Part shown: positions 1 to 40,084 of the stretch, piece by piece
Position numbering within the stretch: the stretch's first letter is position 1
Layout: each line of letters starts with the position of its first letter
IMG/VR virus record: IMGVR_UViG_3300046740_000180
Location: 1 to 40,084 of that record
Reading direction: 5' to 3' (one strand)
DNA length: 40,084 bases
Origin: a virus
Program-made: the position numbers and the translations under genes
Notes under the pieces: model-generated
Database searches by the model: none
The model's input: the letters and a program-made list of their open reading frames with translations, nothing else
What the model was told of the DNA's origin: nothing

Positions 1-297
1 TCGTCTACGCGGGAGAGGTTTTGCTCTACGACGGGGAGAATCCTTACGCTTTGGACACCGTTTTCCCGTTTGCCGAGTACGTCCACTACTACGTTCCGGG
101 CAAGTTTTGGGGCTTTTCGGACGTTGCTCTACTGAAATCGGCTCAGATGGTGGCCGACAAGAACATGGCGCAGGCCCTTGACGCCCAGAGAATGACTTCT
201 ATGGGCTATTTCGAGTATCCCGCCGAGGCTCTGGCCTACGCGCAGCGCGGAAACGCACCCGGGCAGGGCTTTCCGGTCCCGGTTCAGTACACGGGCC
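1..297. repeat. Left copy of the 297-bp terminal overlap
   Basis: These bases match 39788-40084 with ten substitutions (window positions 128, 131, 143, 179, 200, 231, 251, 257, 263 and 269). The first 127 bases are identical, and all ten changes are synonymous in the portal frame. This marks closure of a circular or circularly permuted genome, with two strain variants represented, and not a packaged terminal repeat. Confidence 0.9.
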
Positions 298-2324: not shown

Positions 2325-3206
2325 ATGCCTGAAGATGTCACCCACCTGCTAGGCGGAGATCAGCCGCCGCCGCAGGAGCCGCAGGCGGAGCAGCCGCCCT
2401 CGCAAGAGCAGCCGCCCTCCGAAGCCCCGGCACCAGAAGAAACGGTTAGTTGGATCATTGGAGGCCGGGAACGACAAATCCCAGTCTCTCTAGCGCAGCA
2501 GTTTGCCAAGGCTGCAATGGACGAAGAAGACCCCGACTCGGTTCGTAACGCCCTCGCCCTAGGAAGCCGCTACAACAGCGACATGTCCCGGCAAGGCCGA
2601 GAGAACGCGCAGTTGAGGGCAAAACTCGCCCAACTTGAGGCGGCCCAGGGCGTACAGCCTATGGCCCCGGCTCAGCGACAGCCACAGCAGCCGCAGTACC
2701 AGAACCCACAGCAGCCCCCGGACCCCACGAACGATCCCGTGAACTATCTGGCGTATCGGTTCGATACCCGCCAGGAAGCACTGGAACGGAAGTTCGACGC
2801 CTACATTCAAGCGCAGCAGCAGGCCACTCTCCACCAGGAGCAGCAGAGAGAAGCCCAAGTCCTCGAACAGTCCTACAACAACTGGGCTGAGAAGAAGAAG
2901 GCGCAGGGCTTCAAGAGCGTGCCCTCCTTGGAGGAAATGGATCAGCTAGCCGCAGACCTTGAACTGGGCGCTACGAGTCTTCCCTACGACAAGGCGTTCG
3001 AGGTTGCTTGGAACGTGTACTACGGAGATCAGGTCGCACAGACCGCACAGAAGGCGGCTGTCGATAACCTTCGCAAGCCGAACGCGAAGATCGTTGTTCC
3101 TGGCGGTGGTGCGTCGAGACCGGCGCAGCCCGCAGCCAACCCAGCAGACCAACTCGGCGGAATGACTTGGGGCCAAGGCATCGAGTTCATCCCCGAAAAA
3201 CGATAA
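2325..3206 (+). CDS. Capsid scaffolding protein
   Basis: A 293-aa acidic, Gln/Pro-rich protein directly upstream of the major capsid gene. The first 45 residues are a low-complexity PPQEPQAEQPPSQEQ-type tail. A predicted helical/coiled-coil core follows (RQGRENAQLRAKLAQLEAA, then QQQATLHQEQQREAQVLEQSYNNWAEKKK). The C-terminus is short and mixed. This architecture and position are those of podovirus scaffolds, which line the procapsid interior and leave before DNA packaging. There is no visible protease domain or neighbouring protease gene. The assignment is from layout and composition. Confidence 0.8.
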   Translation: MPEDVTHLLGGDQPPPQEPQAEQPPSQEQPPSEAPAPEETVSWIIGGRERQIPVSLAQQFAKAAMDEEDPDSVRNALALGSRYNSDMSRQGRENAQLRAKLAQLEAAQGVQPMAPAQRQPQQPQYQNPQQPPDPTNDPVNYLAYRFDTRQEALERKFDAYIQAQQQATLHQEQQREAQVLEQSYNNWAEKKKAQGFKSVPSLEEMDQLAADLELGATSLPYDKAFEVAWNVYYGDQVAQTAQKAAVDNLRKPNAKIVVPGGGASRPAQPAANPADQLGGMTWGQGIEFIPEKR

Positions 3207-3220
3207 GGACGTGAGTTTAG

Positions 3221-4069
3221 ATAGGTAGCGTAACCTCAGTTACCGCCGCAACTCTAATCTCGAATCTGTGGTCCGACCAGATCGAGTACGCGGCAAACGA
3301 CGTTAGAGGCGTCGTCAACTTCATTACCGATACCGGGGAGCGCTGGTTCGGTCCCGGTGGCGGAAACATTCTGTTCCCGAACGTGGGAGCGATTGCGTCG
3401 AGCGCATACGGTGCTGGCTCGACGACCCTCACGCTCACGTCGAACACGGAAGGCGTCACCACGGTCAACCCGACCGTGATCTATACCGCCGTGGAACTCT
3501 ACGAGGACGTGCTGAATACGACCATCGTGGACGCGGTGAAGGTTTACGCGCCGGTTCTCGCGGAGGGCCTGTACCAGAACATCGAGGAAACGATCCTCTC
3601 GAAGCACCAGACGACCATTACCACGGTCGGAACGTCTTCGGCTGGCTACAACTTCCTCGAAGCGGACTTCCTTACCGGACTCGCTCAGCTTCATGCGAAC
3701 GGCAAGGACAAGGTGAAGCCGGGCAGCATCTACGGCATCTACCATCCGCTCCAGTACGACAACATGATGGCGGTGTCGAACATCGTGTCGGCGGCAGTGC
3801 GTGGGGAGTCGAACGGCCCGGCCAAGACCGGCGTCATCGGCCTCTCGAACGGCTGCAATATCTTCTTCACGTCGAACGTGCAGTTGCTCACGGCGAATAT
3901 GTGTAACCTCCTGATCGCTCCGAAGTGGCTCATTCTTGCTCGCAAGAATCGCCCGAAGATCGAGATGGAGCGCACCAATCTGGCGACTCGCGTCGTTGCC
4001 TCGACCCAGTACGGCGTTGCCGTCCAGTGGTCGAACTGCGGCGTTCGCCACGTTACTCAGTCGCTCTAG
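3221..4069 (+). CDS. Major capsid protein, start codon ATA
   Basis: A 282-aa protein following the scaffold, with long Thr/Val-rich beta segments, helical stretches and a C-terminal RTNLATRVVASTQYGVAVQWSNCGVRHVTQSL typical of HK97-fold capsid subunits. The frame is closed by TAG immediately upstream, so translation must start at or after 3221, where the codon is ATA. Ahead of it lies AAGGACGTGA, nearly the full complement of the 16S rRNA 3' end, with 6 bases between. The next NTG codons (CTG 3266, GTG 3383) would remove coding-like sequence. The product is the most abundant virion protein, so an ATA start is striking. Confidence 0.85.
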   Translation: MGSVTSVTAATLISNLWSDQIEYAANDVRGVVNFITDTGERWFGPGGGNILFPNVGAIASSAYGAGSTTLTLTSNTEGVTTVNPTVIYTAVELYEDVLNTTIVDAVKVYAPVLAEGLYQNIEETILSKHQTTITTVGTSSAGYNFLEADFLTGLAQLHANGKDKVKPGSIYGIYHPLQYDNMMAVSNIVSAAVRGESNGPAKTGVIGLSNGCNIFFTSNVQLLTANMCNLLIAPKWLILARKNRPKIEMERTNLATRVVASTQYGVAVQWSNCGVRHVTQSL

Positions 4070-4789: not shown

Positions 4790-5528
4790 CGTAATCATCC
4801 CGACCTGGAAGAACGAATACTGGTTGAAGCGATGTCTACGAGCCTTCGCAGAGGCCAAGATGCCGGAACTCGGGAAGGTCATCGTCGTGGACAACGGCGG
4901 GGACTTCTACGAGTCCAACCACTTCACGGCCGGACTGACGACAATGGTAGTGGCTCCGGGGAAGAATCTGGGCTGGACGGGCGGCCTGTACGAGGGCCTG
5001 CAGCACTCGGATTCCGAGTACGTCATGTTCATGAACGACGACGCAGAGTTTGAGCGTATGCCGGATCGGCTCACCCTAATGCTGGAGCATTTCAATGATC
5101 CGAAGGTTGCAGCAGTGGGTCCCGCTACTGGTACTGCTATGGGTAGGCAAGCCGTGGAGGGGCCGGATACTGAGGACACTGGGGTTCTCGTCGGCTTCTG
5201 TGTACTGGTCAGACGACCTACTCTTGATGCGGTCGGGGGAGTCCTACTGGATTGGGACTTGGGAGACGACATCGACCTCTGTATCCGTTTCTCCAAGGCA
5301 GGCTATCGAATGGTTATCGACCGGAGAGTGTTCGTTTACCACCATGCTTTCAAGACTGGAGTCAAGGTCTACGGGCAGCCAAAGAAGCCCGGAGGGTGGA
5401 ACTCCATAGAGATGGTTTCGGCCACCACGCAAAGGCTCATCTTGAAGCACGGCGCTGAGGCTGTGCTGGCTGCTCTCGGGGAGGAAGCGAAGCCCCAGGG
5501 GGTCCGAACCATCACCATCGAAACGTAA
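4776..5528 (+). CDS. GT2-family glycosyltransferase
   Basis: A 250-aa GT-A fold enzyme of the rhamnosyltransferase-like GT2 type. The N-terminal VDVIIPTWKNEYWLKRCL and VIVVDNGG form the nucleotide-sugar Rossmann half. MFMNDDAEF holds the metal-binding DxD-type motif. GDDIDLCIRFSKAGYRMVIDRRVFVYHHAF matches the conserved acceptor-side segment of the family. It would move a sugar from a nucleotide donor to an unknown acceptor in the cytoplasm. It starts with GTG inside the previous gene and leads a cassette of sugar-transfer genes placed within the structural operon. Confidence 0.88.
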   Translation: MPSVDVIIPTWKNEYWLKRCLRAFAEAKMPELGKVIVVDNGGDFYESNHFTAGLTTMVVAPGKNLGWTGGLYEGLQHSDSEYVMFMNDDAEFERMPDRLTLMLEHFNDPKVAAVGPATGTAMGRQAVEGPDTEDTGVLVGFCVLVRRPTLDAVGGVLLDWDLGDDIDLCIRFSKAGYRMVIDRRVFVYHHAFKTGVKVYGQPKKPGGWNSIEMVSATTQRLILKHGAEAVLAALGEEAKPQGVRTITIET

Positions 5529-9294: not shown

Positions 9295-9570
9295 TTGGCG
9301 TTTTCGTACACGATCACCGGAACCCGAGACTTGCAGGGTGCGAAGTTGATTCACGGCACCTGGGACGCAACCGCTGCGACGAGCGGAACGATCACCTTTG
9401 GCGGAACTCGGGGCGGAAACCAGGGAACGCCCTACACCCTGATTGACTCAACTGTTGTCTCCAGTGTCTCGTCCACCACCATGACGGCATCGAAGATGAC
9501 CGCAACGGGAACGCTGGTTCTCACCTGTGTCTCTGGCGATGCGGGCTACTGGTCCGTCACCGTCCTGTAA
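9295..9570 (+). CDS. Small beta structural protein, copy 1 (TTG start)
   Basis: A 91-aa Thr/Gly-rich protein beginning MAFSYTITGTRDLQGAKLIHGTWDATAA and containing the block TYTLIDSTVVSSVSSTTMTASKM (positions approximate). The next gene repeats the same layout. TTG directly follows the preceding TAG, after AAGGAGTGG. It is probably a virion or decoration protein with an all-beta fold. No family was recognised. Confidence 0.78.
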   Translation: MAFSYTITGTRDLQGAKLIHGTWDATAATSGTITFGGTRGGNQGTPYTLIDSTVVSSVSSTTMTASKMTATGTLVLTCVSGDAGYWSVTVL

Positions 9571-9582
9571 GGGGGACTTACA

Positions 9583-10077
9583 ATAGCGTTCACCTATACT
9601 GAAACCGGCACCACGAATCTCGGTAACTGCCGGTTGGTCTACGGGACTTGGAGTGCCGCGAGCGTCACCGGGGGCGTCATTCCGATCTCGGTCCCGAACA
9701 CCTTCTTCCCCACGGCCCTCACCACCACGACCGCAAGCAACACCACCCTCACCACTTCCGGCTCGTATACGACCTCGGCTATCGCGGTAGGAGACTACAT
9801 CACCGGAACCGGGATTATCGACGGAACCTATGTCGCGTCGATTGAGTCGGCTACTTCGCTGACTATGAGCCAGGCGGCCACGGACTCGACGGCCACGAGC
9901 CGGACGTTCTCTCGCGCAGGCCGAAGCCCGTACTCGATCCTCACTGCCAAGGTTGTCTCCAGCACTTCTTCCACGACGATGACCGCGTGCCGTATTAGGT
10001 CGCTCTCCACGATGCAGCACCTAGACATGACCTGCGTCACCGACGACTTCGGCTACTGGTCCATCTACTGCTACTAG
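9583..10077 (+). CDS. Small beta structural protein, copy 2, ATA start
   Basis: A 164-aa paralogue of the preceding protein with a Thr/Ser-rich insertion. Both share AF.YT.TGT at the N-terminus, GTW.AA, SILTAKVVSS.SSTTMTA (copy 2 wording) and D.GYWS near the end. The frame is closed by TAA at 9568, and the paralogue alignment places Met exactly at an ATA codon, behind AAGGGGG with 7 bases between. The next TTG is 51 bases inside the shared domain. This is the best independent support for ATA initiation in this phage. The function is unknown, presumably virion. Confidence 0.82.
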   Translation: MAFTYTETGTTNLGNCRLVYGTWSAASVTGGVIPISVPNTFFPTALTTTTASNTTLTTSGSYTTSAIAVGDYITGTGIIDGTYVASIESATSLTMSQAATDSTATSRTFSRAGRSPYSILTAKVVSSTSSTTMTACRIRSLSTMQHLDMTCVTDDFGYWSIYCY

Positions 10078-10085
10078 GGGGTTAG

Positions 10086-10289
10086 TTGCCACGCAAGAAC
10101 AGCAAGGCATCGGCTCGGTGGCTTGTGAAGCCGCTCACGTGGAAGGACGTGTTTGGTAAATCGCAGTCGGCGTCACGCAACCGGGCGGTGCCGGTACGAC
10201 CATCTTCATCTACGATAACGCCTCCTCCGCCAACGGAATCGCCTACACCTTCGCGGAGATCGCAGCGGCGTTCCCAGCCGACGACGTAG
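10086..10289 (+). CDS. Short reading frame MPRKNSKASARWLVKPLTW; own gene or 5' part of the next
   Basis: TTG follows AGGGGGTTAG, a good SD. The first 25 codons (basic, then WLVKPLTWKDVFGK) look coding. After about 10160 the frame becomes an out-of-frame shadow of the next gene (Pro/Ser/Arg-rich). There are two readings. It may be a separate 67-aa product overlapping its neighbour by 130 bases. Or the two are one protein joined by a -1 shift, programmed or due to an indel, near GGTAAATC. The fused product would begin MPRKNSKASARW and run into IAVGVTQPGG. Confidence 0.4.
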   Translation: MPRKNSKASARWLVKPLTWKDVFGKSQSASRNRAVPVRPSSSTITPPPPTESPTPSRRSQRRSQPTT

Positions 10290-11452
10290 ACAACGGCACC
10301 AACCGAAAGTCCTACCGCAACAAGGTCAACATCCAGGTCGGGGAGACTGGTTCTGGTGGCTCGCTAACCTCGATTGTAGACACCGACAAGACTCTGCTAT
10401 TCGACAACTCTAGGACGCTTGTGTTCAAGTCCACCCAGACTACATCCTGGGCTTGCACTCTCGGGACCAAGGTTGGCACCGGGAACAGGGCTAGCGGGAC
10501 GGCCGGGTGCGACATCACAGCAGGAACCGCCCTCACCTTTCGCGGAAACACGAAACTCTACGGATGCACGGTTCGGCAGACAGCGAACTCCGGTATCTCA
10601 ATCACTCCAGCGACAACCGGAACCTGCGAGATAATCAACTGTCTATTCGACTCCAAGGCTACAAGTTTCTCGGCTCCACTGGCTTTTGGCAACTCAGCCA
10701 CGTTCATCGACAATATCTACAACTTGGACGTAGCCTGCTCGGTTAGTGGGCAGACCATCATAACCAACTTCTTCGCAAACAACGCGGAGAGGATAACTGT
10801 AGCGGCGTCCGGGTCGCCTACGTCGTTCTTCCTAATCTCGGCATCGGGATTCGCAATCAAGGACGTTTCCCTGTTCGGGACTCCGACGGCTGGCGACTTC
10901 GCTTGGCAGACCGGAATTTCAGGTCCATCGACTCTGGTTAGGCCAGTGTGGTCTGGAAATGCGTCTAAGTTTGGACCGTTATCGGCACCGACTTCAAGTA
11001 TGCTCACAATTGGAAGGCAGTGTTCTGAATACTGGATGTTAGATGTGAAGATTGAGGATGGGTCTGGAACCGCTATCAGCGGGATACCAGTAAGGCTTAC
11101 CGATACAGTTGGGACTGTCCAAGTCAACACCACCTCAAACTCATCTGGAGAAATATCGTTTGGGTCAGGGCTAACAGCCGAAGCTGTGATCGTTATGGAT
11201 CACTACGCTGGAAACGATTCGGCTGCCGACACAGTATACAGGCAGCGCCACCGATCCCCGTTCCTGCTTGAAGTCAACCTGCCCACGATGGCCGGATACA
11301 ACAACAACTACCAGTCCAAAAGGATGACCTTCAACTGGCCGGGATACGAGTCGGTAACAACCTCGGCTGGAACGTTCGAGGACGTGAATATAGTCATCTC
11401 TCTTAGCGACCCTCCAGGCACCCCCACCATCTGGACCGAAGCATCACTCTAA
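10160..11452 (+). CDS. Beta-helix virion protein, apparent ATC start
   Basis: A 430-aa protein. Residues 1-250 have the short repeated strands of a right-handed beta-helix (LTFRGNTKLYGCTV, TCEIINCLF). Residues 280-370 contain a carboxypeptidase-regulatory-like Ig segment (DVKIEDGSGTAISGIPVRLTDTVGTVQVNTTSNSSGEISF). The frame is closed by TAA at 10157 and then continuously coding from ATC. The SD AAGGACGTG is the same 9-mer as at the capsid gene, 8 bases before ATC. The next NTG codons lie about 235-260 bases inside. The alternative is a frameshifted fusion with the short frame upstream. It is likely an adhesin-like virion component. Confidence 0.78.
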   Translation: MAVGVTQPGGAGTTIFIYDNASSANGIAYTFAEIAAAFPADDVDNGTNRKSYRNKVNIQVGETGSGGSLTSIVDTDKTLLFDNSRTLVFKSTQTTSWACTLGTKVGTGNRASGTAGCDITAGTALTFRGNTKLYGCTVRQTANSGISITPATTGTCEIINCLFDSKATSFSAPLAFGNSATFIDNIYNLDVACSVSGQTIITNFFANNAERITVAASGSPTSFFLISASGFAIKDVSLFGTPTAGDFAWQTGISGPSTLVRPVWSGNASKFGPLSAPTSSMLTIGRQCSEYWMLDVKIEDGSGTAISGIPVRLTDTVGTVQVNTTSNSSGEISFGSGLTAEAVIVMDHYAGNDSAADTVYRQRHRSPFLLEVNLPTMAGYNNNYQSKRMTFNWPGYESVTTSAGTFEDVNIVISLSDPPGTPTIWTEASL

Positions 11453-12462: not shown

Positions 12463-15400
12463 TTGTCCCGTAGATTCAACGGGTCCACGGACCTTATCTC
12501 CTGCGCTTCTCCGGCTGTTCTGGACAACCTGACGGGCGGCCTCACGATTGGGTGCTGGATTTACGCATCGAACTTCGGGGCCAACTCCAAGGGTTATATC
12601 GTTGGTAAGGGAACCTCAGACTCCACCAACACTACGACGTGGCGCATCGCCAATGCTACGTCTGGAGGGGCCGACAAGTACGCCCTACGGTTCGAGGTAA
12701 TGTACTCGGACGGATTTGGGTTGTTCCGTGAGACTGCCAATGCCTCGTTCACGCTAAATACGTGGTACTACGTCATCGTCACCTGGGGAGGCTCCAACGC
12801 CAGGACAGACATACATATGTACTCGGAGGGTGTCGAGTGTACCTACGGGGCTGGTGGAGAGCATAACGGTGGTACTACCCACGATGATTCGGCTGGCAAC
12901 TGGGTAATCGGAGAGAGGCCAGCACAGCACAACAGAACGTGGTCTGGCGATCTCTATGGGCTTAGGGCGTGGGCGTCGGTAATATCCAGCACCAACTTCG
13001 CTTCCATGAGACTGGACGGAACCGTGGGTACTCCGGTCGGCTGGTGGGCTATGAACGGGACCGCCGACCCTGAACCAGACACTTCTGGTAACGGAAACGA
13101 TGGAGTCCTAACTGGGACCACCGGCTCAAGTAACCCCCCAGCGATTGGCACGGCCCATACAAGCCAATCGATCCCAGGCACGGCCAAGATTCATGCGACC
13201 CTGACGAAGACGCTTACCGGGGTGGCCAACATCTTCCCGTCTGGCCGTCACCAGCGCCCCATCACGGGCGTAGCAGCCATAACTCCTGGGCTTGTGAACG
13301 CTACGTGGACCGCGCTACCGGCTCCAACCCAGGTGCCGTATGCCAGCCTTAGCGGAACCTACGACCCTCGCGGTTGGGACAAACTGGAGTACGACCCAAC
13401 TAGCGGCAAATTCTGGACGTGGGACGGCTATCTTGCGAGTGACAGGGCCTACACGATCTACGGAAACGCCCTGTGGCAGTACGACCAGGGAAGCAACAAA
13501 CTCATCCTCTACAAGATCATCAACTGGCAATGGACAGCCCCCACCTACGTCACGTCTCCAACTCCAGAGAACGCGGCTGACCCTACCCCATACGACCGAC
13601 ATTCGTACCAGGGAATGTGCGTGGTTCCCTCTCAGAACAAGTTGTATCTATGGGGCGGAGCGAACACTACCAAGGCGGACAACTGGAAGGCCGAGTTCTG
13701 GAGTTACGACCTAGCGGCCACACCGGGGACGGTCAATTCGTGGACCCTGATTTCAACGTCCAGCGACAGCACGCTAACCAATTCCACGACGCCTACGCTG
13801 CCCCCATACGCATCGTTCGAGCAGTGTATGGTGAACGACACGCAGAACGGGCAACTAATCGTATTCAGCGCCAGGAACGACCACGGGTTTGTGCAGGAGG
13901 GCCGGGACACCTTCACCTATAACCTGGCCGCTGGGACTTGGGCGAAGCGTGCCAACGCAAGCGGTGACCCCGGAGCGAGACTTGGGCACTCGATGTGCTG
14001 GGACTCGTCTAGGAATTGCGTCTGGATGTTCGGTGGTAGCGGCGCTTCCCCGTATCCCCAGTTGGGGAACGAACTCTGGAAGTACGTTCCGGCAACGAAC
14101 ACCTGGAGCCAGCCTACTACTACTGGAGGCCCGCCAAGGACTAGGCGTTTCGGAAACTGGGCCTACGATTCCCAGAACGATGTCTGCGTGCTGTTCGGTG
14201 GGAGCGACGTTTACAGGAACGCTGGGGATACTGCGGACCTGTCAGACAGCAGTTTCGTAGGGCTGAACGATACGTGGGTATTCCGCCCAGGCTCTCTTGT
14301 GTGGCAGCAGTTGTCCCCGTCCGCTAGCCCAACAGCATCCGAGTCGTTCGGCAACAAACTGGCCTACGATTCGGTCAACAACTACTTCGTCTACAACGCT
14401 ATGGGGACAGAGGGTAAGTTCTACCTGTTCCGATATGGTTCCACGCCACATGCTAGCCAGACGATTACTGGCAAGGCCAAGATCAAGGCTCACATCCCCC
14501 AGACCATCACGGGCGTTGCCAACATAACCCCGAACACGGCCAAGCAGACTCAGACAATCACTGGGAAGGCCAACATAGCCGCAGGCCCGCTTTCGGTTCA
14601 GATCACTGTAAGCGAGACACTTCCGCTGAGCGTCCCTGGCTTGGCTCGGTCCCTGTCTCCGGTGAGTGTTGGAATCCCGATTCCTGAGTCAGCAAATATC
14701 TCCAGCGTAAGCCAGCTTGGGATGACCGGTCCCACAGCCTACCAATTCCGAATCCTTGGAAACTACGCTAGCGGCAAAGCCAAGTGGGTGTTGTGTGACT
14801 TCCTAGATTCCGTGTCGGCTGGCGGTAGCAGTACGGCGGCAACGCTGACTAGCGGCACCGGGGCGCTCGGCTCCAACATGGCTACGGACGGGGCCACAAT
14901 CTCCGTGGACACCGGAGCGGCGGTGTTCTCGGTCGTCAAGGCCCCGTTCAAGATGTTCGATGCGGTGACCGTTGGCGGGACTTCTGTGGTGACCACTGGG
15001 GGAACCGGGGTAACGTTGCTGGTGGGTGGTATCGCCTACTCGTCTGCCAACGACAATAGCGCCACGACTACGGTAGAAGAGAACGGCCCGGTCCGAGTCT
15101 GCGTCTTGTCCAAGGGTGCGTTGAAAAACGGCGGCGGCACCCGGCTCATGGACTACACGGTGAGGCTGCACTTCTACAAGGGTAAGTCTTACTGCCGGGC
15201 CTTCGTTACACTGCGGAACGCCAAGGAGTCATCTACTCAGGCTCCAGTTGTCTTTGACTCGGTGGAAGTGTCTCTCAAGGTTGGCACTTCAGCCTCGACT
15301 TTCGTAACCAAGACCTCGCTGGACGTTTCTCCGCTTTCCATCCCGCTGTCTGCTGCGGAGACGGCCTACGCTTATCAGGCGTACTCGACAAAGTATCAGG

Positions 15401-17595
15401 CCACATCCTCTCAGAACGATTATGCTACTGCACCGATGAATACTGCCGTGAAGGGCGTGGCCGTCGTGAAGGGCGCTACGACTTACCACGCTCAGAGCGG
15501 AAACACTTCTGACTACGTTGAGTGGGCTGCCCTGGAGGATTCTGGCGGCAAGGGCGTAACGATGGTCATGCCGTACATGGCCCAGTATTGGCCTGCTGGA
15601 TTCGAGGTGTCCCAGGACGGCTCATGCTCGGTACAGTTATTCTCTAAGAGGAACAGTAAGACCGGGATCAAGTTCGCATTCCTGGCTCACGAGACTCGGG
15701 AACTCTTCTTCGACTTCCACGCTACTACTCCGGCCAGCAGAAGCACCGCTCTCTACGAGGCCCAGTATTCTCTCCAGGGTAGGGCCAGCGTAACGCAGTA
15801 CGCATCTACTGGTGCCATCTTCGGAGAGACTCAACTGGTATCTCAGGCAGAGCAAGATACGTGGTACACGACCCTGACTGCGGTGTCTGGCCCACCAGGC
15901 GGAGTACCCAACGTGGTCCCTGGGATTATCCGGTGGTGGTCTTGGAATCAGGGGTCCGGCAACAACCAGACAGACTTCGCCGTAATCGACTTCATTGACT
16001 GGATAAGGACCGGGTACGGCGGATACTGGTGGCAGGGATTCAAGAACACTTGGTTCAAGAGCCACAACGCAGTGCCGTGGTCCGACGACTGGGACATGTA
16101 CCTTGACCAGATCAATGCCGGGGACGAGACTGGCGGCACCAACCTTGGCACATTCAACTCCTACCCATTCCAGCAGGCGCACCCCCACTTCACAAGCCTG
16201 ATGCTCGGATACTACATGACTGGGCAGATGGAGTTCTACGATGCTGTGTATGAGTACGGAGAATACGAAATATCTCTAGGGGACGGCATCTCCCCGCTCC
16301 TGTTCTACAACCCCACTGGGTCATTCGACAACGTAGGCTCTTCATTTAGCCTTGAGACGGTAGGGGACATGCGTATCTGGTCCCGCTATCTCAGGAACTT
16401 CGCTGCCATATGGGACTTCACCAGAAATCCGCGATACTACTCCATGATGTCCCTCATGGTGAACAGCATGCTGAACTCCACGGAAGTCCCAGGCTCCGTG
16501 GCTCCTGCTGGCCGAAATCGTCGCAGGGGATATATGTGGATGTCTCACGGAGCCTTTGCGCTTCCACGAACGGTATCGGACTTCTTTACTTCTCAGATTC
16601 ACTTCGAAGCGGTCTGGTACGCTAAGATGATGCTGGCCGAACAGGGAGCAACAGCCACCGTCCTAGCAATCGAGGACTATCTGCTCGGCCTGGGCGACTT
16701 CATGTACTACGAGATGTTCTTCGATCTTACTGGTAGTGGTGGGGCTATGGGTTATCTCTACACCTACTACTTGGATGTAGCTAACAACTCAACAAATAAC
16801 CCGCACTGGCCGCCACTCGACTATCTGAGAATGATTGCCGGTGGGCGTTGCTGGACGTTCATGTGGCAGATGACCGGAGATACGAAGTACCTGGATCGAG
16901 GGCGGCTCCTGCTGGTTGGGGATGCCAAGGGGCAGACGGACGCTGGAGTGTCGTTTAGAACTCCGTCCGACTTCCCACAGCAGGCGTTCATGTACAACGA
17001 CCTGTACCGGCCCGAGACTGGGTGGATCAACGCTAGCCCAGTAAGCGCGTTCCCGATTGGGCTAAACAAGTACAGAGTGTTCGTAACTCTACCGTCTACG
17101 GCCAACGGGGTAAGGGTGAGGGCGGCTCCTGCTGGGTCAAACATAGTTGACTGGCTTGGATTCAGCCAGGACTCAAGAACCTACATCTACGGCTCAACGG
17201 GCTTTACTCCCTGGTTCGCTGGAGTCCATTTCACAGACCCCGACGCAACCCAGGTCAAGGCCAACGGCTTCTTCGACCTAACCGGAACCAACATAGTGAC
17301 TCAATACGGTTCCTTCATGGTGAAGTACACGACCGGAACAACCCCAGTCTCGACCCCTAGAACGATCCAGGGCAAGGCGAAGATTCTAGCCCACGTTCCG
17401 CAAACCATCACCGGCAAGAGCAGAATCCTCAAGCACGTTCCGCAGACTATTACCGGGGTGGCGTCGATCCTGCCTCCGAGTACCACTAGGGCGGTCTACG
17501 ACATTACCGGGGTAGCGAAGATAAGCACCGGCCCTGGCCCCTCGACGTGGATCCACGGAACGACCCCATACGGACAATGGAAGAAGGGTAGATAG
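12463..17595 (+). CDS. Giant modular tail fibre with lectin, kelch and polysaccharide-lyase-like domains
   Basis: A 1710-aa protein with a TTG start. Residues 1-230 match LamG/concanavalin-like lectins (FNGSTD, LTIGCWIYAS, WYYVIVTWGG, YGLRAWASV). About 275-660 is a kelch propeller (LYLWGGAN, CVWMFGGSG, CVLFGGSD). About 710-1100 resembles the RIFT-barrel and beta-sandwich of YetA/PL26 exo-rhamnogalacturonan lyases (SVGIPIP, KAKWVLCDF). About 1140-1560 is a Trp/Tyr-rich helical part like their alpha/alpha toroid. Ten short QTITGKAKI-type repeats sit at domain borders (near 235-270, 660-705 and 1630-1690). It probably binds and perhaps degrades a surface polysaccharide. Enzyme activity is inferred; catalytic residues were not identified. 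Confidence 0.88.
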   Translation: MSRRFNGSTDLISCASPAVLDNLTGGLTIGCWIYASNFGANSKGYIVGKGTSDSTNTTTWRIANATSGGADKYALRFEVMYSDGFGLFRETANASFTLNTWYYVIVTWGGSNARTDIHMYSEGVECTYGAGGEHNGGTTHDDSAGNWVIGERPAQHNRTWSGDLYGLRAWASVISSTNFASMRLDGTVGTPVGWWAMNGTADPEPDTSGNGNDGVLTGTTGSSNPPAIGTAHTSQSIPGTAKIHATLTKTLTGVANIFPSGRHQRPITGVAAITPGLVNATWTALPAPTQVPYASLSGTYDPRGWDKLEYDPTSGKFWTWDGYLASDRAYTIYGNALWQYDQGSNKLILYKIINWQWTAPTYVTSPTPENAADPTPYDRHSYQGMCVVPSQNKLYLWGGANTTKADNWKAEFWSYDLAATPGTVNSWTLISTSSDSTLTNSTTPTLPPYASFEQCMVNDTQNGQLIVFSARNDHGFVQEGRDTFTYNLAAGTWAKRANASGDPGARLGHSMCWDSSRNCVWMFGGSGASPYPQLGNELWKYVPATNTWSQPTTTGGPPRTRRFGNWAYDSQNDVCVLFGGSDVYRNAGDTADLSDSSFVGLNDTWVFRPGSLVWQQLSPSASPTASESFGNKLAYDSVNNYFVYNAMGTEGKFYLFRYGSTPHASQTITGKAKIKAHIPQTITGVANITPNTAKQTQTITGKANIAAGPLSVQITVSETLPLSVPGLARSLSPVSVGIPIPESANISSVSQLGMTGPTAYQFRILGNYASGKAKWVLCDFLDSVSAGGSSTAATLTSGTGALGSNMATDGATISVDTGAAVFSVVKAPFKMFDAVTVGGTSVVTTGGTGVTLLVGGIAYSSANDNSATTTVEENGPVRVCVLSKGALKNGGGTRLMDYTVRLHFYKGKSYCRAFVTLRNAKESSTQAPVVFDSVEVSLKVGTSASTFVTKTSLDVSPLSIPLSAAETAYAYQAYSTKYQATSSQNDYATAPMNTAVKGVAVVKGATTYHAQSGNTSDYVEWAALEDSGGKGVTMVMPYMAQYWPAGFEVSQDGSCSVQLFSKRNSKTGIKFAFLAHETRELFFDFHATTPASRSTALYEAQYSLQGRASVTQYASTGAIFGETQLVSQAEQDTWYTTLTAVSGPPGGVPNVVPGIIRWWSWNQGSGNNQTDFAVIDFIDWIRTGYGGYWWQGFKNTWFKSHNAVPWSDDWDMYLDQINAGDETGGTNLGTFNSYPFQQAHPHFTSLMLGYYMTGQMEFYDAVYEYGEYEISLGDGISPLLFYNPTGSFDNVGSSFSLETVGDMRIWSRYLRNFAAIWDFTRNPRYYSMMSLMVNSMLNSTEVPGSVAPAGRNRRRGYMWMSHGAFALPRTVSDFFTSQIHFEAVWYAKMMLAEQGATATVLAIEDYLLGLGDFMYYEMFFDLTGSGGAMGYLYTYYLDVANNSTNNPHWPPLDYLRMIAGGRCWTFMWQMTGDTKYLDRGRLLLVGDAKGQTDAGVSFRTPSDFPQQAFMYNDLYRPETGWINASPVSAFPIGLNKYRVFVTLPSTANGVRVRAAPAGSNIVDWLGFSQDSRTYIYGSTGFTPWFAGVHFTDPDATQVKANGFFDLTGTNIVTQYGSFMVKYTTGTTPVSTPRTIQGKAKILAHVPQTITGKSRILKHVPQTITGVASILPPSTTRAVYDITGVAKISTGPGPSTWIHGTTPYGQWKKGR

Positions 17596-19143: not shown

Positions 19144-19311
19144 TTGGCCAAGCCTCCCCTTGGGAGCGGACAGCGGTTCAAGTTGTTGGAGCAGAAACTA
19201 GCGAACAAGCCGGGCATCACCAACCCGGGAGCATTGGCGGCTAGCATCGGCAGGAAGAAGTACGGCAACAAGCGGTTCGCCATGCTGTCTCAGAAGGGTC
19301 GCAAGAAGTAG
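19144..19311 (+). CDS. Small basic protein before the adaptor
   Basis: A 55-aa strongly basic protein (MAKPPLGSGQRFKLLEQKLANK, then ASIGRKKYGNKRFAMLSQKGRKK). It starts at TTG exactly 6 bases after AGGAGCGTGA, which sets the reference spacing for this phage's SDs. Similar tiny basic proteins often precede adaptor genes in podoviruses and may bind DNA, but the function is unknown. The adaptor's GTG follows its TAG directly. Confidence 0.78.
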   Translation: MAKPPLGSGQRFKLLEQKLANKPGITNPGALAASIGRKKYGNKRFAMLSQKGRKK

Positions 19312-36855: not shown

Positions 36856-37330
36856 ACTTCCAGTTGGGGAGTCTGGGGTTGAGCGGGGCCGTCTCACCGA
36901 GGATAGGCAGGACGCCCTCGCGGAGTGGTACGGGAAGTCGGAGGCCGAGAAGAAGGCTAGCGGGCTTCCCGATCCTGGGGCCGTGGCTCAGTTGCTTGGT
37001 ATCTCGGCGGCTACGGTTCGCAGGGCCAAGACGGACAAGCGGGTCATGGGGAAGATTCGGGAGCAGTTGGATCAGCAGCTTCTTTACGACGTGGTTGAGA
37101 TTCGGCCTGTTATCAAGGCTCTGGCGATGGACCCTGAGGGTAAGACGGACGTTCGGCTGAAGGCTGCACGGACCATCGAGGAGTTGGCTGGTAACTTGAA
37201 GAAGGGGCCTGGAGTAGAGATCAACACGACGAACGTTCACCCGACTGTGTGGCAGGACATGAGCGACGACCAGGTACTTGAGGCCGTCGAAAGGATTGCC
37301 AAGGAGCGCGGTTTCCGTAAGCCAGAATGA
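36842..37330 (+). CDS. terS: Small terminase subunit
   Basis: A 162-aa protein directly upstream of the large terminase. The N-terminal half has an HTH (DPGAVAQLLGISAATVRRAKTDKRVMGKIREQL) for recognising the packaging site. The second half (VVEIRPVIKALAMDPEGKTDVRLKAARTIEELAGNL) is helical, as in the oligomerisation region. It starts at GTG overlapping the previous gene by 14 bases with a weak SD. Family similarity is by architecture and position. Composition returns to the C-rich pattern of the structural genes here. Confidence 0.77.
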   Translation: MKVTKLPVGESGVERGRLTEDRQDALAEWYGKSEAEKKASGLPDPGAVAQLLGISAATVRRAKTDKRVMGKIREQLDQQLLYDVVEIRPVIKALAMDPEGKTDVRLKAARTIEELAGNLKKGPGVEINTTNVHPTVWQDMSDDQVLEAVERIAKERGFRKPE

Positions 37331-38813
37331 TGACCTAGCCCTACTCCAAGAGTACGAACGGAGGACGAAGCAACGCCCTTGGCTCGCCTACCGTTGTATC
37401 CCAGCCGTGAAGAAGTTCCACGACTCGAAGGACTTGATCCGTGTGTTGGCCGGGCCGAACCGTGGCGGCAAGACGACAGCGGGTTCATACGAACTCTTGT
37501 GCTTCGCAACCGGCTACAACCCAATTCGCAAGGAGAAGTACGAGGTACCGAACATTGTATGGGCTATTTCACTCGACTATGGAAATCTTGGCCATGTGAT
37601 GAGGGAGAAGGTGATGTCTCTCTTGCCACCGGGCTACAAGTTCTACAAGCAGGAGAATATCGTCACCCTTCCGAACAAGTCGGAGATTCACTTCAAGTCT
37701 GCCGATGCGGGAAGAGAGAAGTTTCAGGGCGCAGGGATCATGGCCGCTTGGTTCGACGAGGAGCCGAAGGGCCTAGCGGGGTCGGAAATCTTCTCGGAAG
37801 TCTATGCTCGACGGAAACCGGGCTGGCCACTGAAGATATTTATGACCTTCACCCCTCTTCAGGGGTTGTCGTGGGCCTACCGGGATTTGTGGAATGAGCA
37901 GACCCGGCGCTACCCGAGTATCAGTACATTCTCTTTCCAGTTGGATGACTGTTCGACATCCCTTGGAGGATTTCTTTCAGATGACGAAATCGAAACGATC
38001 AAAGCCGGGTACACGGAGTGGGAAAGGGAAGCCCGTGTCTACGGACGCTGGGGTCAAGTCTCAGGGAGGCCGTACTTCTCGCCCAAGCAAATCGAAGAAG
38101 CCCGCCAAAGGTCGGACAAGCCGGTCTACGGGTCGGTAAAGAAGAATGCGATTTCCGGGTATTCCTTCACCACCGACGATGCAGGGAACGTGGCCCAATT
38201 CCGTCCTCCTAGGTCCGGGGGAGACTATATCGTTGGGGTTGACGTTGGGGGTGGGGGAGGACGCGATTACACCGTCGCTACCGTCTGGGATCGACGTGAT
38301 CTGGCTGAAGTCGCGGTCTGGCGCTCTAACACTCACGATCCGGAACAATTCGCCCGAGAGCATTTGGTGCCCCTTGCCTCCTACTACAACTATGCACTCG
38401 TTGTACCAGAAACCAACGGGGAACACGGAGGAACCTGCATCTCGGTCCTGAAGAACTTCGCCTACCCCAATATCTATATGTACCAGGAGTGGAACAAGGT
38501 AAGAAACGTCTACATGGATAATTGGGGCTGGAGAACCACGGTTGGAACTAGGGGCCGGATTTTCGACTCCATCGCGCAAGCTCTCCGAGAGGGGAAGTTC
38601 ACCCCTTCCTCCCTCTTGTGTGACGAGCTATCGATGATTTCCGTAGACGAAGAGAACCGGCCCGACCATCTTGACGGATGCCACGACGACCACGTGATTG
38701 CGACTGGTATTGCTCTCACGGTCAACGCTGAGAATCCGCCTCCGAAGAAGATTCCGTACGACAAGGTGACCTATGCGTCTCCTCATGCAGAACATGAGTG
38801 GATGGGCGTTTGA
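37317..38813 (+). CDS. terL: Large terminase subunit, probable GTA start
   Basis: A 498-aa packaging motor. Walker A is GPNRGGKTT (about 46-54). Walker B with the catalytic Glu is AAWFDEEP (D147/E148). The RuvC-like nuclease has GVDVGGGGGRDYT (D309), VVPETNGEHGG and GCHDDHV (about 456-461). It translocates DNA through the portal and cuts concatemers. The coding frame has AAGGAG 10 bases before a GTA, giving MSQNDDLALLQEY. In-frame TTG codons at 37296 and 37278 exist but have no well-placed SD. GTA is preferred by SD spacing, with moderate certainty. Confidence 0.9.
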   Translation, partial: VSQNDDLALLQEYERRTKQRPWLAYRCIPAVKKFHDSKDLIRVLAGPNRGGKTTAGSYELLCFATGYNPIRKEKYEVPNIVWAISLDYGNLGHVMREKVMSLLPPGYKFYKQENIVTLPNKSEIHFKSADAGREKFQGAGIMAAWFDEEPKGLAGSEIFSEVYARRKPGWPLKIFMTFTPLQGLSWAYRDLWNEQTRRYPSISTFSFQLDDCSTSLGGFLSDDEIETIKAGYTEWEREARVYGRWGQVSGRPYFSPKQIEEARQRSDKPVYGSVKKNAISGYSFTTDDAGNVAQFRPPRSGGDYIVGVDVGGGGGRDYTVATVWDRRDLAEVAVWRSNTHDPEQFAREHLVPLASYYNYALVVPETNGEHGGTCISVLKNFAYPNIYMYQEWNKVRNVYMDNWGWRTTVGTRGRIFDSIAQALREGKFTPSSLLCDELSMISVDEENRPDHLDGCHDDHVIATGIALTVNAENPPPKKIPYDKVTYASPHAEHEWMGV

Positions 38814-38841
38814 AACCCGGACTAGAGAGGGGTGAGTCGGC

Positions 38842-40084
38842 TTAGACGAGCCTGTTAACGACACAGAGCAGGAAGGCTACAAGATCGCCAAGGCGCTTGC
38901 CGAGACGGCTCGCGGGCCTGCGAATAAATACACGGCCAACTACGAGAACGACCGAGACTATCTGCTCGGCGTTAACCATTGGCCCACACCACGCACGTAC
39001 ACGCAAATGGCCCCCGACGCTTGGAAGGCCAAGACTGTTAGAAACTGGCTTTTCCGCACCGTTGACCACAAACGCGCCGTTGTCCTAGACGCCACTCCGT
39101 CCATCCACGTAGAACCTTTGTCTGATGCCGTGCCCCTTGAACTGAGAGCCAAAATCAGTCAAGTGACCGAACATGAGTTGAATCGACTTCGATGGGACGA
39201 CCTGGCCGAGGCAGCATTTTGGGACGGGGCTGTGTGCGGCAAGGGAATCACGATGTGCCGGACTGAACGAGACAAGTTCACCGGAGAACACAAGATTCGG
39301 CTCGACCGCGTTGACCCCAGAGACTTCTTTCCCGACCCCTCCGCTGACTCTATTCACAACTCCCGATACGTTGTCTGGGAGCCAGACCTCGACCTATCGG
39401 TTATCAAGGACATTTTCCCCGAGAAGGGTGACAAGGTTCACGCAAACAAGACCCAGCCAATCAACATGCCTGGGTTCAAGCGTGCCCGCAGCGACGACGA
39501 GATCATTTACGCCCCCGGGCAGGAAATCGCGCTCGGAGATGGCAAACTCAAGGATCGAAAGGCCACCGTAACCTTCGTTTGGATCAAGGACGACTCGGTT
39601 TCTGAGGACACCGAGCTTGTTGTGAACCCGAACAAGACGGACGTTGCCGAGTGCCAGGACTGCGGGTCCATGTCGCAAACAAGCCCGTGCCCTAATTGCG
39701 GCTCCGAGAACATGGCGCAGACCCAACTTCCCTCCGACGTGACCCAAAACCAGGTTTTCACTCGTCAGTACCCGTTTGGGCGGCTCATCGTCTACGCGGG
39801 AGAGGTTTTGCTCTACGACGGGGAGAATCCTTACGCTTTGGACACCGTTTTCCCGTTTGCCGAGTACGTCCACTACTACGTTCCGGGCAAGTTTTGGGGC
39901 TTTTCGGACGTTGCGCTCCTGAAATCGGCCCAGATGGTGGCCGACAAGAACATGGCGCAGGCCCTCGACGCCCAGAGAATGACTTCGATGGGCTATTTCG
40001 AGTATCCCGCCGAGGCTTTGGCCTACGCGCAGCGCGGTAACGCCCCCGGACAGGGTTTTCCGGTCCCGGTTCAGTACACGGGCC
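38842..40084 (+). CDS. Portal protein, N-terminal part, start codon TTA
   Basis: The first 414 codons of the portal, continuing at base 1 onward (39788 equals base 1). NRDYLLGVNHWP-like ENDRDYLLGVNHWP, WKAKTVRNWLFRTVDHKRAVVLDATPSIHVEPL and LDRVDPRDFFPDP are typical of P22-type portals. A zinc knuckle (CQDCG...CPNCG, about residues 271-284) is inserted in the wing region, an odd addition. The frame is closed by TGA at 38833 and has no ATG, GTG or TTG before deep coding sequence. TTA lies 6 bases after GAGGGGTGA, giving MDEPVNDTEQEGYK. Confidence 0.86.
39788..40084. repeat. Right copy of the 297-bp terminal overlap
   Basis: Corresponds to bases 1-297. Identical for the first 127 bases, then ten synonymous differences in 170 bases. 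Represents a second haplotype of the same portal segment. Confidence 0.9.

Follow-up and report, generated by a model that had tools for sequence, protein, structure and literature searches.

The probable major capsid protein gene of the viral genome studied here (3221-4069, 282 aa) appears to start at an ATA codon. At least four start codons in the structural genes of this genome, this one included, end in a base other than G (ATA, ATA, ATC, and TTA or GTC). The stretch of DNA analyzed, which we call the window, is 40,084 nucleotides long, and the capsid, scaffold-like, terminase, portal, 9295, 9583 and 10160 genes described below lie on the + strand. We consider it the most probable reading, at roughly 0.6, that, in a tolerant host, the capsid gene and at least three other virion genes genuinely start at codons lacking G in the third position, with initiation driven by the Shine-Dalgarno (SD) sequence. 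The capsid protein would then be translated from the AUA at 3221 by fMet-tRNA, placed there by a strong extended SD.

The sequence-only reading had proposed the ATA start from the immediate 5' context of the gene (...CCCGAAAAACGA TAAGGACGTGA GTT TAG ATA GGT AGC GTA ACC...), and the elements on which it relied were all found in place. An in-frame TAG (3218-3220) lies directly 5' of the ATA (3221-3223), and the extended SD TAAGGACGTGA (3204-3214), described as nearly the full complement of the anti-SD, agrees with TAAGGAGGTGA at 10 of 11 bases, with a predicted SD:anti-SD energy of -11.3 kcal/mol that is equalled by 2.2% of random genome positions. The GTGA end of this SD (at 3214) is 6 bases from the ATA at 3221, the last three being the TAG, and the same spacing of 6 bases is indeed present at the TTG-started gene at 19144 (GGAGCGTGA-ACTAGA-TTG). 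The TAA stop of the upstream gene (2325-3206) overlaps the SD and makes up the first bases of TAAGGACGTGA; this gene is P/Q-rich and scaffold-like, its function being assigned from position and composition only, with no family match. The ORF at 3221-4069 is open throughout, and a codon model self-trained on the window detected coding signal from 3239 onward. The first in-frame ATG, GTG or TTG is the GTG at 3383, 54 codons downstream and within conserved sequence.

The product of 3221-4069 is probably the major capsid protein, as judged from gene order and from one weak profile match in a relative. The order terminase, portal, scaffold-like gene, capsid is present, the scaffold gene being assigned by position and composition only, and one of the 12 members of the capsid family showed a weak match to PHROG 544, 'major head protein' (E 0.0018). 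The window protein itself had no Pfam or PHROG match, the family profile had no PDB match, and no relatives of the capsid or portal profiles were found among genome contigs. Named phages yielded distant terminase matches only (e.g., Arthrobacter and Rhizobium phages, 25-30%), with no portal or capsid match.

Relatives of the capsid protein were found on 15 viral contigs (41-48% identity), and an alignment of their N-termini places the ATA at 3221 on the start codons of the relatives, which among the 11 distinct sequences are TTG in most and otherwise GTG or ATG. The start follows an in-frame stop directly in 10 of these 11, with one codon between the two in the remaining one. Since the relatives align in this way and share the stop-start pattern, the ATA stands at the expected start place and the TAG is a conserved feature of the family. 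Homology, the placement of the SD and the recurrence of such starts within the genome thus give good support to a capsid start at ATA. Nearly all relatives (L002-L016, L051) keep the stop directly before the capsid start, mostly as TAG TTG, the arrangement also seen in the further relative L051; across genes with homologues, a stop lies directly 5' of the start in 16 of 122, and NTG follows 3.9% of all stop triplets. The conserved stop may serve to block N-terminally extended products.

Further ORFs in the window showed coding signal ahead of any NTG with the codon model trained on the window. A TTG-started gene at 9295-9570 (TAG TTG GCG TTT TCG TAC) is followed by its paralogue, and residue 1 of the former aligns with the ATA at 9583 within the ORF 9571-10077 (blastp, E 9e-9), placing the start of the latter gene (9583-10077) at this ATA behind TAAGGGGGA (SD energy -10.2 kcal/mol). 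The gene at 10160-11452 starts at an ATC directly after a TAA, opens TAA ATC GCA GTC GGC GTC, and has the SD AAGGACGTG (-12.4 kcal/mol). The 9583 and 10160 proteins gave no matches when each was searched as a single sequence, and the homologues of the latter were obtained by comparing the genomes of relatives; at the same point these have TAG ATG GCA GTA GGT (G006), ATG GCC GTA GGA GTC (G009) and GTG GCT GCT GGG (G002). A frameshift from the ORF at 10086 into the 10160 gene was considered and rejected, since the ATG of the homologues falls exactly at the ATC. The first 24 or so codons of the ORF itself (10086-10289, TAG TTG CCA CGC AAG; MPRKNSKASARWLVKPLTWKDVFG...) resemble coding sequence, after which it runs over the 10160 gene in a different frame; a short gene and a remnant are both possible.

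The portal gene spans the circular junction, with its 5' part at 38836-40084 and its 3' part at 3-1094. The ORF runs for 57 codons without NTG, the first one (39007) being codon 58, deep in the conserved part. Its start codon is ambiguous: TTA at 38842 is the best candidate; its SD (-17.2 kcal/mol) is stronger than that of any other start examined, and six bases separate the TTA from GTGA, the spacing also seen at the capsid start. The alternative is GTC at 38836, directly after a TGA. The terminase large subunit gene (37317-38813) may start at GTA 37317, with AAGGAG 10 bases upstream, and TTG at 37278 or 37296 is also possible. All clear noncanonical cases in the window are in structural genes, the early genes being too poorly conserved to compare. 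ATG accounts for only about a third of the listed canonical starts in the window, and the SDs at the ATA, ATA and ATC starts are stronger than those at canonical starts (canonical median -8.3 kcal/mol; p=0.03, from few genes).

The two ends of the window (1-297 and 39788-40084) overlap by 297 bases with 10 differences that leave the protein unchanged, which indicates that the genome is circular, or circularly permuted, has some 39,787 bases and was assembled from a mixture of strains. At about 39652-39705, the portal contains a stretch with four cysteines that resembles a zinc ribbon and weakly matches HypA (CQDCGSMSQTSPCPNCGS); it is invariant in portal relatives. In many relatives (L023-L035), the portal gene has an ATG start that no recognizable SD precedes, and a TTGAC-like motif is frequent upstream, which suggests a promoter and possibly a leaderless transcript. 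The structural region also encodes, at 12463-17595, a 1710-residue protein with Kelch beta-propeller repeats (Pfam E about 1e-25).

The same type of start is present in a divergent relative, G022 (IMGVR 3300028831_000215, 40.8 kb, with a 141-base end repeat), whose capsid protein is 31% identical to that of the window. Its capsid gene starts AAAAGGACTGACTTGCA ATA GCG ACT, which aligns with TTG GCT ACA of the sister genome G020, and its homologue of the 10160 gene starts TAG ATC, so that both genes have the same noncanonical codon as in the window. The G022 terminase runs for 68 codons without NTG. A capsid tree built by maximum likelihood sets the two ATA users apart, both on long branches, and pairs G022 with the TTG-started G020 with full support; the ATA start was therefore either gained twice or retained with several reversions elsewhere. 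The terminases of G013 (L044, about 5000-5070) and G020 (L089, about 2070-2160) have no ATG, GTG or TTG ahead of the conserved part, and their probable start is CTG, a first-base mismatch unlike the third-base mismatches of the window; the G020 region is identical in three samples. Most other genes of G022, G013 and G020 have NTG starts.

The frequency with which such genes would arise by chance was addressed by a survey of genes with homologues, in which overlap-filtered ORFs were scored for any ATG, GTG or TTG before the conserved part. No such codon preceded the conserved part in 3 of 11 window genes, compared with 7 of 194 genes in sixteen related records (p=0.006, for which the window was entered with 9 genes instead of 11); four of the seven are convincing (the G013, G020 and G022 terminases and the G022 homologue of the 10160 gene) and the others are weak. 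As a control, six T7-group phages gave 1 of 103 (Fisher p=0.003 against the window), and this single case is trivial: the gene has a single homologue, and codon 11 is an NTG. The 9583 gene of the window and the G022 capsid gene were judged by hand and lie outside the survey counts.

How these codons might be used is constrained by what is known of initiation. Since ATA, ATA and ATC differ from AUG in the third base only and have the stronger SDs, they fit the use of ordinary fMet-tRNA, which would pair with a third-base mismatch and be held in place by the SD. In E. coli in vitro, IF3 rejects weak third-base pairs (PMC10158994), and high output from AUA would thus be unexpected in an E. coli-like host. 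In an E. coli reporter study, ATA and ATC are reported to have reached up to 19-44% of ATG in one context and to have been near zero in others (PMC6925171). From infC and sigR it is known that starts of this type function in cells and are sensitive to IF3 (PMC5472188). We infer that the checking by IF3 and initiator tRNA in the host of this phage tolerates a third-base mismatch when the SD is strong, allowing production in quantity, in which case the third base of the start codon would be under weak selection in the phage lineage. The sequence-only reading had left two options, a relaxed host or a start that limits the capsid; the presence of ATA, ATC and TTA/GTC starts in more window genes, together with ATA and ATC in G022, speaks for initiation that is relaxed or SD-driven rather than for a brake specific to the capsid, though neither is provable from sequence. 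A stronger form, in which a whole host group hardly checks the third start base and SD-positioned AUA and AUC are normal productive starts for abundant proteins, is offered tentatively; if it is true, gene finding restricted to ATG, GTG and TTG mis-annotates both phage and host.

The starts could instead be real and deliberately weak, repressed by host IF3 until IF3 runs short late in infection, which would time or balance the virion proteins. Third-base-mismatch starts are IF3-repressed in Streptomyces (PMC5472188) and E. coli (PMC2268962), and all clear window cases are in structural genes, as such gating would have it. Against this, a weak start would be costly for the capsid protein, normally the most abundant product, most relatives have TTG, GTG or ATG at the capsid gene, and the portal and capsid genes both have such starts despite the very different amounts needed; we regard the proposal as rather doubtful and favor productive SD-driven initiation in a tolerant host over it. 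No IF3_C match was found in the record. Decoding might also be changed, by AUA being read as Met in the host, by an altered initiator tRNA, or by editing of the third base; ATA and TTA would resemble AUG and UUG once their third base is taken as G. This is very unlikely: internal ATA codons align in homologues with I (27%) or V (24%; together 51%) and with M in 9%, neither editing of A nor AUA as Met can account for ATC, and no phage tRNA genes were detected in the record. AUA=Met recoding was accordingly rejected, the phage reading internal ATA as Ile, as was A-to-I editing, by which ATC is not explained. An altered initiator tRNA in the host might still apply.

The remaining alternatives concern the sequence and the frame. 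Sequencing or assembly error, or a damaged genome, with true starts of ATG, GTG or TTG, could be argued from the contig, which joins strain variants (10 differences in the 297-base end overlap), and from each ATA being one base change from ATG. Yet errors would be needed exactly at the start codon of at least four genes whose ORFs are otherwise open, every difference in the end overlap is synonymous, the portal start region is matched without a difference by L050, a 5382-base contig from another sample, and G022, an independent assembly, has ATA and ATC at the same two genes. We hold error to be very unlikely, and given the recurrence, the base change or frame shift by which the earlier proposal might have fallen is unlikely as well. 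Initiation might also occur at the GTG at 3211, inside the SD, and be followed by a +1 frameshift into the capsid frame, as there is a mini-ORF (GTG AGT TTA GAT AGG TAG) in the neighboring frame that ends just past the ATA. This GTG lies within the SD, one base past AAGGA, the mini-ORF is absent from the homologues, whose starts follow the stop, and no matching arrangement is present at the other noncanonical starts; a GTG inside the SD of sigR was misassigned as the start in the same way (PMC5472188). We view this route as extremely unlikely. A programmed frameshift fusion was likewise discarded, as neither the homologues nor the other noncanonical starts have a conserved upstream ORF with its own start and SD.

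Well-studied third-base-mismatch starts, those of infC and sigR, are rare and hold a regulator in check. Here, such starts would drive the probable capsid protein and other virion proteins in two lineages that the capsid tree separates. Genes of this kind are truncated by callers limited to ATG, GTG and TTG, and viral metagenomes may therefore hold many more. If confirmed, these starts would suggest that start-codon proofreading is loose in some hosts or states of infection, a property that can be tested in nature. In the part of the literature covered, no report was found of an ATA or ATC start in a structural gene of a phage, a negative to which we give little weight.

Compared with known systems, the window shares with the Streptomyces sigR gene and its GTC start (PMC5472188) a non-G third base, a strong extended SD and a tempting GTG inside that SD; sigR encodes a scarce regulator held down by IF3, whereas the window has such starts at several structural genes including the probable capsid gene. 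With infC (AUU in E. coli, ATC in Streptomyces; PMC5472188), the shared features are an NTN start and a third-base mismatch to the CAU anticodon, but infC encodes IF3 and its start provides feedback, while the window genes do not encode IF3. The T7-group phages resemble the window genome in size and in the late order of portal, scaffold and capsid, yet none of the 103 genes tested there convincingly lacks an NTG start. Overall, the type of start is known from infC and sigR, and what we would, with caution, call unusual is that several late structural genes are affected.
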